From a bacterium (GTDB lineage: Bacteria; BMS3Abin14), in NCBI GenBank assembly GCA_020350725.1, contig CP070719.1, positions 927,329 through 991,328 on the forward strand: a stretch of DNA of 64,000 nucleotides, written 5' to 3'. Under the pieces are notes generated by a model, which was given only the letters and a program-made list of their open reading frames with translations, ran no database searches and was not told the origin of the DNA. The position numbers and the translations under genes were made by a program. Positions 41,360-43,242 of the stretch are shown one piece after another (positions within the stretch are counted from its first letter, which is position 1; each line of letters begins with the position of its first letter).

Positions 41360-41391
41360 ACTGGGCCGGGGGAAACACAGGAGGTTGACAG

Positions 41392-42240
41392 ATGCTTAAA
41401 TTGCTCGTGCACATGTTCCTCTGCCTCGTATTCACGATATCCCTTTCCGCTTCACCCGCCCTGGCAGCCTTCGAACTCACCGGCTCTCTGAAGGTAGACC
41501 TCAAGGCCAAGACCCTGGACACGGCCGTGTCCGAGGACGGCAAGTGGACCTTCGTCCTTTCACAGGGAGGGAACATCCACGTCCTGAACTGGAAGGGAGA
41601 AAACGTCCAGACCGTGAAGACCGAGGGGAGCTACGACAGCATCGAGTTCGCCCCTCCCGGCATTCGGCTCATCCTGTCCGGCGGCGGCGAGAGCGATATT
41701 CTGGTCATCGCCCTCGATCTGGTCCTGGAGATCGACACGGCCGGTTCCCCGTCGAAGGGCCCGGACGATGCTCCGGTGGTTATCGCCTACTTCAGCGACT
41801 ACCAGTGACCCTACTGCGCGAGGCTCGTGCCTCTACTCGAGCAGGTGCTCGAGAAATACCCCAGGGACGTCCGGATCGTGGAACTGAACTTTCCCCTGAA
41901 CAACCATAAGATGGCCAGGCCCGCGGCCGCCGCGGCTCTGGCCGCCTGGAAACAGGGAAAATTCTGGGAATTTCACGACCGCCTTTTCCAGGACTACGAC
42001 AGGATCACCGAGAGTCTCATCGACGGTATCGCCGGAGAACTGAGCCTGGACCCGGCCCGGTTCCAGAGGGACCGGAACAGCCAGGCCATAAACGACCTCA
42101 TCAACCGAGACCTGCGGCAGGGCCAACAGCTCGGCGTCCGGGGAACGCCCACCATCTTCGTCAACGGCCGCCGTCTCTCGAACAGGAGCCTGACGGGGTT
42201 TTCCCAGATGATCGATCAGGAACTGGCCAAGGGGAAATAG
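41392..42240 (+). CDS. Exported DsbA-like selenoprotein with UPYC active site (in-frame TGA = selenocysteine)
   Basis: One continuous 283-codon frame interrupted only by TGA at 41806-41808 (codon 139). A signal peptide (cleavage near residue 25) is followed by a beta-rich domain (about 27-120) and a thioredoxin-fold domain of the DsbA/Thioredoxin_4 type (about 125-282). The TGA falls exactly where relatives have the first cysteine of CPYC (FSDYQ-TGA-PYCARL). After the TGA the reading frame and conserved residues (FWEFHDRLF, GVRGTPTIFVNGR with the cis-Pro) are intact, so this is not a frameshift or decayed gene. A SECIS-like hairpin follows at the right distance. The product is probably a periplasmic thiol oxidoreductase with a Sec-Cys redox pair. 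Selenocysteine machinery (selA, selB, selC) is not in the window. Confidence 0.88.
41836..41853 (+). promoter_or_regulatory. Bacterial SECIS-like hairpin
   Basis: A perfect seven-pair stem, CTCGAGC (41836-41842) with GCTCGAG (41847-41853), closes an AGGT apical loop. The guanines of the loop lie about 35 bases after the TGA. Bacterial SECIS elements sit just inside the coding region with a small apical loop containing G and U, as in the E. coli fdhF element, whose loop also begins AGGU. This supports SelB recruitment. Confidence 0.78.
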
Positions 42241-42411: not shown

Positions 42412-43242
42412 ATGCGCAAAACTCTTGTTGTCACCGTCATTGTTGCCGTCCTCTCCACTGCCGGCCTATTTGCATCCGCCGATGACGCATCCGCCTTCGG
42501 AACCGAGGGATGCGGTGAGGGTCAGTGCAGTGACTGTCACGGCATGGAAAAGGAAACGGCGGTCCAGCTCCTCAAGGACCTTCCAGGGCTCGACAGTGTG
42601 GACAGCGTGGACTTCGCCCAAGTACCCGGCCTTTACGCTGTCGAGGTCACGAGCAAAGGCCAGAAGCACATCCTGTACATCGACTTCTCCGAGACCTATG
42701 TCATCTCGGGAAACGTGATCCACATTGCGGAGCGCGAGAACATAACCAGAAAACACCTGATGAACCTGAGGCGGGTCGACCTCACCACGGTCCCCACCGA
42801 AGCAGCGCTGGTCCTGGGGAATCCCAAGGCGAGCAAGGTCGCCTTCGTCTTCACCGATCCCCAATGCCCCTACTGTGAGAAGCTCCACCCGGAGCTGAAG
42901 AGGGCTGTGGAACTGGACCCCGACCTCGTCTTCTACATCAAGCTCCTGCCGCTGGTGAAGCTCCACCCTGACTCCTACAGGATCTCCAAGAGCATCATCT
43001 GCGAAAACTCGCTGGAGCTGCTGGAGTCCAGCTTTGCCAAACAGCCCGTTCCCGATCCGGTCTGCGACACGGACGCCATCGACAGGACCATCTCCCTCGC
43101 CCGCAGCCTGGGCATCGGTTCCACCCCGACCCTCATTCTGCCCGACGGGCGGATAGCGCCCGGCTTCAGGAAGGCCGAGGAGATCCTGAAGCTGGTCAAC
43201 GAGAAGCAGGAGACGGAAGCGGCGAGCCGGAAGGGGGATTAA
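42412..43242 (+). CDS. DsbC-like thiol:disulfide interchange protein with N-terminal CxxCH motif
   Basis: A 276-aa exported protein. Signal peptide to about residue 28; CGEGQCSDCHGM with C34, C39 and C42-H43, where CSDCH is a possible covalent heme c site; a DsbC-type N-terminal dimerisation-like domain (about 45-115); and a thioredoxin fold with CPYC at 152-155, TPTLILPDGR and two further cysteines. DsbC proteins isomerise wrong disulfides in the periplasm. Position just after the DsbA-like selenoprotein suggests joint action on secreted proteins, perhaps multiheme cytochromes. Heme attachment is inferred from the motif only. Confidence 0.87.
   Translation: MRKTLVVTVIVAVLSTAGLFASADDASAFGTEGCGEGQCSDCHGMEKETAVQLLKDLPGLDSVDSVDFAQVPGLYAVEVTSKGQKHILYIDFSETYVISGNVIHIAERENITRKHLMNLRRVDLTTVPTEAALVLGNPKASKVAFVFTDPQCPYCEKLHPELKRAVELDPDLVFYIKLLPLVKLHPDSYRISKSIICENSLELLESSFAKQPVPDPVCDTDAIDRTISLARSLGIGSTPTLILPDGRIAPGFRKAEEILKLVNEKQETEAASRKGD

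Follow-up and report, generated by a model that had tools for sequence, protein, structure and literature searches.

Is a DsbA-like gene with a single TGA at its active site a broken gene, or is the TGA read as selenocysteine (Sec)? The question is raised by a locus in the window, that is, the whole stretch of 64,000 nucleotides analyzed here, which corresponds to C1:927329-991328 of a single-contig, 2.78-Mb genome (G000) listed as 100% complete. The gene and its immediate surroundings comprise the following features:

41379..41384, + strand: Shine-Dalgarno-like AGGAGG, 7 nt upstream of the ATG, identified from the sequence
41392..42240, + strand: DsbA-like gene, predicted to contain Sec, 282 aa with TGA 139 as selenocysteine
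41806..41808, + strand: in-frame TGA, codon 139, the putative Sec codon
42238-42329: tandem repeat of low complexity, with TAGAGAT as its 7-bp unit and a higher period of 28 bp

Translation of the frame 41392-42240(+) into 282 residues confirmed the original prediction that it is open save for one internal stop, TGA 41806-41808 (codon 139), which stands at the head of a DsbA-type UPYC motif, in the place of the first Cys in CPYC-type motifs. The read-through product starts with MLKLLVHMFLCLVF..., continues as ...YFSDYQ-U-PYCARLVPLLEQ...GTPTIFVNG... (the residues directly flanking codon 139 being ...YFSDYQ-U-PYCARLVPLLEQVLEKYP...), and ends at a TAG/TAA-type stop at 42238-42240. Codon usage is coding-like on both sides of the TGA, the rest of the frame is intact, and the alignment shows, as had been claimed, that homology runs on past the TGA in the same frame, taking in the Q-G-K-F-W-E-F-H-D block and the cis-Pro loop. 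A standard ORF caller indeed splits the gene into two pieces, of 138 aa and 137 aa, and loses the active site. The TAGAGAT repeat falls between this gene and the dsbC-like gene downstream. A readthrough scan of the window yielded 35 candidates, all of which, except the one at 41806, looked by eye like antisense or out-of-frame shadows. Neither tRNA genes nor Rfam matches were found in the window.

A search of GTDB genomes for homologues produced 80 tblastn-confirmed loci, with 34-49% identity. The raw codon counts at the TGA position (TGA/TGC/TGT, 72/20/12) are inflated by 8 paralogues and 4 DsbC hits; after removal of these, the family consists of 92 members, in which codon 139 is TGA in 64 and a Cys codon in 28 (TGC in 17, TGT in 11), with no other codon represented, and conservation of the protein extends to either side of this position. 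Thus, the in-frame UGA aligns with the Cys of homologues, the pattern by which bacterial selenoproteins are recognized. A homologue (L043) is also carried by Desulforhopalus singaporensis, which is in culture. No relatives of the gene were found in viral contigs. One member (L102, G009:C301:1272-2102) has UHYT, that is, Sec is kept and the resolving Cys is replaced by Thr, and its genome also carries a second, normal UPYC copy (L113); the UxxV type "DsbA 3" of PMC2398784 offers a comparison.

The genome encodes all four components of the Sec machinery for which the original prediction had proposed a search, the combination taken here to accompany a genuine selenoprotein gene: selA (599.7 bits), selB (367 bits), which lies on the strand of selA, ~200 bp past it, tRNA-Sec with the anticodon TCA, and a Sec-type selD with an in-frame TGA of its own (active site GUAAK). 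The selD sequence (G000:C1:1315718-1316350) runs into N after about residue 212 and is seen in part. SelB was found in 6 of the 6 relatives with a completeness of at least 90%, and the 4 relatives without a detected SelB are represented by genomes only 71-80% complete. Selenoprotein-rich deltaproteobacteria are well known.

On comparative grounds, it is nearly certain that UGA-139 is decoded as Sec. SelB and tRNA-Sec would carry out this decoding, guided by a SECIS just downstream; failing that, translation would stop, leaving a 138-residue N-terminal piece devoid of the active site. The view that the UGA is a true stop between two proteins, one of 138 aa and another reinitiated at GTG 41827, agrees with the output of the ORF caller but is very improbable: the second piece would begin past the active-site motif, without the first thioredoxin strand, and 28 relatives encode a single protein with Cys. 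A sequencing error or a decaying pseudogene, either of which typically shows itself as one internal stop, has virtually no probability, given that the same codon is TGA in 64 of the 92 members and always Sec or Cys, that 11 of the 12 copies found in 11 genomes of the taxonomic family have TGA, that a ribosome-binding site precedes the frame, which has no other interruption and looks coding in its codon usage before and after the TGA, and that the downstream RNA structure is under selection (see below); error, in particular, is excluded in general, since 63 further loci, most of them from Thermodesulfobacteriota, share this TGA. Genome-wide reassignment of UGA to Trp or Gly would also keep the frame open but is comparably negligible, considering that homologues have Cys and never Trp or Gly in this column, that few open frames in the window cross a TGA with a coding signal on both sides, and that the Cys-or-TGA exclusivity next to a full Sec system would be left unexplained.

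Two tandem hairpins follow the TGA:

41820..41833, + strand: hairpin 1, GAGGC-UCGU-GCCUC, kept by Sec members in either of two registers
41836..41853, + strand: hairpin 2, the probable SECIS core, CUCGAGC-AGGU-GCUCGAG

The RNA after the TGA in the window folds into these two hairpins with an energy of -20.9 kcal/mol (z -3.0). Among the homologues, the mean folding energy of the 48 nt from codon 139 is -17.2 kcal/mol where this codon is TGA and -9.5 where it is Cys (p 1e-11; the sets compared include paralogues and DsbC hits). In hairpin 2, a 7-bp stem carries the apical loop AGGU (41843-41846), 34 nt past the TGA. In the 64 Sec members, 96.9% of the cells of this stem are paired, with compensatory changes in 4 of the 7 pairs, and RNAalifold recovers the same stem; pairing drops to 19-52% in controls with slid partners. 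In the Cys members, pairing amounts to 54% and is indistinguishable from shuffles, so that at least 6 of the 7 pairs are present in 64 of the 64 Sec members versus 1 of the 28 Cys members (Fisher p 2e-22). The wobble positions of the six codons in hairpin 2, which contain 1.2-2.0 bits in Sec members versus 0.06-0.9 in Cys members, are fixed or nearly fixed in the former only. The RNA structure downstream of the TGA is under selection. A search of the genome with a covariance model of the element detected no second strong copy, the next best match scoring 13.9 bits.

The E. coli-type SECIS, exemplified by fdhF, is a hairpin downstream of the UGA with a small loop that carries GGU. The bSECIS model, as presented in PMC13188914, specifies a loop of 3-9 nt, a stem of 4-16 bp, a G within the first two loop positions, and a UGA-to-loop distance of 16-37 nt. 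With 7 bp, the loop AGGU and 34 nt, hairpin 2 fits this model and likewise presents GGU in a small loop, although it lies close to the far end of the distance range, and the window gene differs from the fdhF-type arrangement in having an extra conserved hairpin before the SECIS. Most likely, hairpin 2 is the SECIS hairpin that is recognized.

A maximum-likelihood tree of the 92 family proteins shows no fewer than 7 changes between Sec and Cys where branches are well supported, and 13 on the best tree, counts that do not tell gain from loss. Hairpin 2 follows the Sec/Cys state in a mean of 6.7 of 7 independent contrasts and is opposed to it in none, compared with 4.4 of 7, usually not significant, for hairpin 1. 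An instructive pair is L105 (G002), which has TGC, and its sister L104, which has TGA: hairpin 1 of L105 is intact whereas hairpin 2 is down to 5 of 7 pairs, and the genome still has selB. L105 probably represents a recent change, the direction of which we infer to be from Sec to Cys.

The loop of hairpin 1 lies 16 nt past the UGA, and its 3' arm is constant but pairs with a different 5' arm in each of two groups of sequences. Pairing in the two registers reaches 83% and 90% of the cells, compared with 70% and 86% in shuffles, and each register beats the shuffles in its own group only, a test that is partly circular because the groups were set by the residue encoded in the 5' arm; the pairs 14-27 and 15-26 (T of TGA = 0) show two-sided changes inside one group. 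Probably, hairpin 1 plays an accessory part: it would sit near the ribosome entry channel and shorten the path to hairpin 2. The roles could be reversed in the same selenoprotein, with SelB binding hairpin 1 and hairpin 2 being accessory. The excess of pairing over shuffles and the location of the loop, close to where selD and the DsbA paralogue in this genome's family have their single hairpins (~18-20 nt past the UGA), are compatible with such a reversal, but we regard it as unlikely: the register and the loop of hairpin 1 differ between the groups, it tracks the Sec/Cys state less well, and the window loop UCGU has no G in its first two positions, which AGGU does (PMC13188914). A narrow literature search, in which most subscription papers were missing, turned up no description of a two-hairpin bacterial SECIS. 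We consider it highly probable that the gene encodes a selenoprotein, in line with the original prediction, and that hairpin 2 belongs to its SECIS; at the sequence level, the prediction is supported by gene structure, codon conservation, the Sec machinery and RNA structure.

The protein consists of three parts:

41392..41466, + strand: probable export signal peptide, residues 1-25, ending in ...SPALA before AF, as judged by eye; residues 2-18 are modeled as a helix
41512..41712, + strand: N-terminal beta domain, residues ~41-107, seven strands in the AlphaFold model
41746..42219, + strand: DsbA/thioredoxin-fold domain, residues 119-276

In Pfam, residues 119-275 of the read-through protein match DSBA/Thioredoxin_4 (9.5e-23), and the landmarks of this domain are UPYC at 139-142 and the GTP cis-Pro loop at 251-253. 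The AlphaFold model (mean pLDDT 92) consists of an N-terminal helix, the seven strands at 41-107 and a DsbA fold, for which the best Foldseek matches are a thioredoxin-like oxidoreductase (3gyk), BdbD, ScsC and DsbAs, and a profile search concurs. The structures of BdbD, ScsC and DsbA (3eu3, 4gxz, 1bed) share the DsbA-type fold, with E-values down to 1e-11, but, to our knowledge, carry Cys at both motif positions and have no counterpart of the N-terminal beta domain. The sequence of this domain resembles beta-propeller blades, with weak profile matches to beta-propeller structures. No NCBIfam model scores above its cut-off for the read-through protein; the best match, the Rcas_1661/DsbG-like (seleno)lipoprotein NF041057, is a Sec-accepting thioredoxin-like family, but at 63.2 bits against a cut-off of 190, the protein is not a member by the NCBI criterion. 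The product is probably an exported thioredoxin-fold oxidoreductase of the DsbA/BdbD/ScsC type with an N-terminal beta domain.

The premise that DsbA-like families have Sec members was borne out: UxxC selenoproteins of this type are recorded in PMC1794560 ("DsbA-like"), in the GOS survey, PMC2398784 ("DsbA 1"), and in PMC13188914, as DsbA-like protein form 1 (PF01323, UxxC; representative, NIP15863.1). With a DSBA (PF01323) score of 75.7 bits against a cut-off of 25.6 and the UxxC motif, the protein falls into form 1, a match by domain and motif, and shares with it the DSBA Pfam domain, Sec as the first residue of CxxC, and Cys homologues; the accessible descriptions of form 1 mention neither an N-terminal beta domain nor a two-hairpin element like those of the window gene. 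The gene almost certainly encodes a further DsbA-like selenoprotein of an already known kind. Less ordinary are the conserved hairpin before the SECIS, the lack of recognized Dsb membrane partners, and a DsbA-peroxiredoxin fusion with two TGAs, encoded outside the window:

G000:C1:1453500-1457500 (locus L122, 1366-2565): fusion of a DsbA-like with an AhpC/TSA peroxiredoxin domain, ~399 aa

In the fusion, each of the two active sites, DFMUPFC and AFTPTUSGQ, contains an in-frame TGA, and both TGAs are kept, at near-equal spacing, in 8 of the 8 family genomes from which a copy was retrieved. No NCBIfam model scores above its cut-off for this protein, and such a double selenoprotein is absent from the 119 families in the table of a 2026 review.

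What would an exported Sec-Cys protein of this kind do? An envelope role is suggested by the fold, the export signal and the gene next door:

42412..43242, + strand: dsbC-like disulfide isomerase gene, Cys-type CPYC

The dsbC-like gene adjoins the DsbA-like gene in 11 of the 11 informative loci of the taxonomic family, and no such neighbor was found beside homologues outside it. In all family members examined, the DsbC-like protein has a CxxCH (heme-c-like) motif soon after a signal-like sequence. The protein would be an exported thiol-disulfide oxidoreductase with a Sec-Cys (UPYC) active site, whose selenolate would make it a fast disulfide-exchange catalyst in the cell envelope, working with the adjacent DsbC-like protein; we would put this redox role at roughly an even chance.

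Searches of the genome gave no match to DsbB (PF02600) or VKOR (PF07884), the hallmarks of a classical DsbA-DsbB relay, nor to DsbD/CcdA (PF02683) or DsbD_2 (PF13386), those of a reductive relay, while the controls matched; the membrane partners of BdbD, ScsC and DsbA are thus not found in this genome. Therefore, a standard Dsb relay cannot be assumed. Likely, the membrane redox partner lies outside the DsbB, VKOR, DsbD/CcdA and DsbD_2 families. The same genome has DsbA, DsbC and the DsbA-peroxiredoxin fusion.

Selenols favor fast reduction and exchange. This chemistry, the ScsC among the Foldseek matches, the failure to find DsbB or VKOR, and the consistently adjoining dsbC-like gene would all suit a protein of the ScsC/DsbG-like sort, chiefly a reductase or an isomerase partner that would maintain the DsbC-like neighbor or other envelope thiols in the reduced state rather than serve as a disulfide-forming oxidase. 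However, the reductive partners DsbD, CcdA and DsbD_2 are likewise not found, and VKOR is present in 3 relatives of the same taxonomic family that have the same gene pair. This reductase function is a serious possibility that falls a little short of an even chance, and disulfide formation is slightly more likely than reduction.

More speculatively, and with considerable doubt, we propose that the SECIS is bipartite, with a proximal hairpin that would position the distant SelB-binding one and that has been kept through a change of register, and that the Sec-Cys DsbA and the DsbC-like protein might form a pair acting via a membrane partner of an unrecognized type. Standard annotation would cut this gene in two at the cost of its active site, and the whole protein is not covered by any NCBIfam model. 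The absence of the known Dsb membrane partners from a complete genome poses a testable question on envelope redox chemistry. With its 64 natural Sec variants, 28 Cys variants and no fewer than 7 independent switches between the two states, the family makes a good set for testing which RNA features a bacterial SECIS needs and for asking how these features decay after the loss of Sec.
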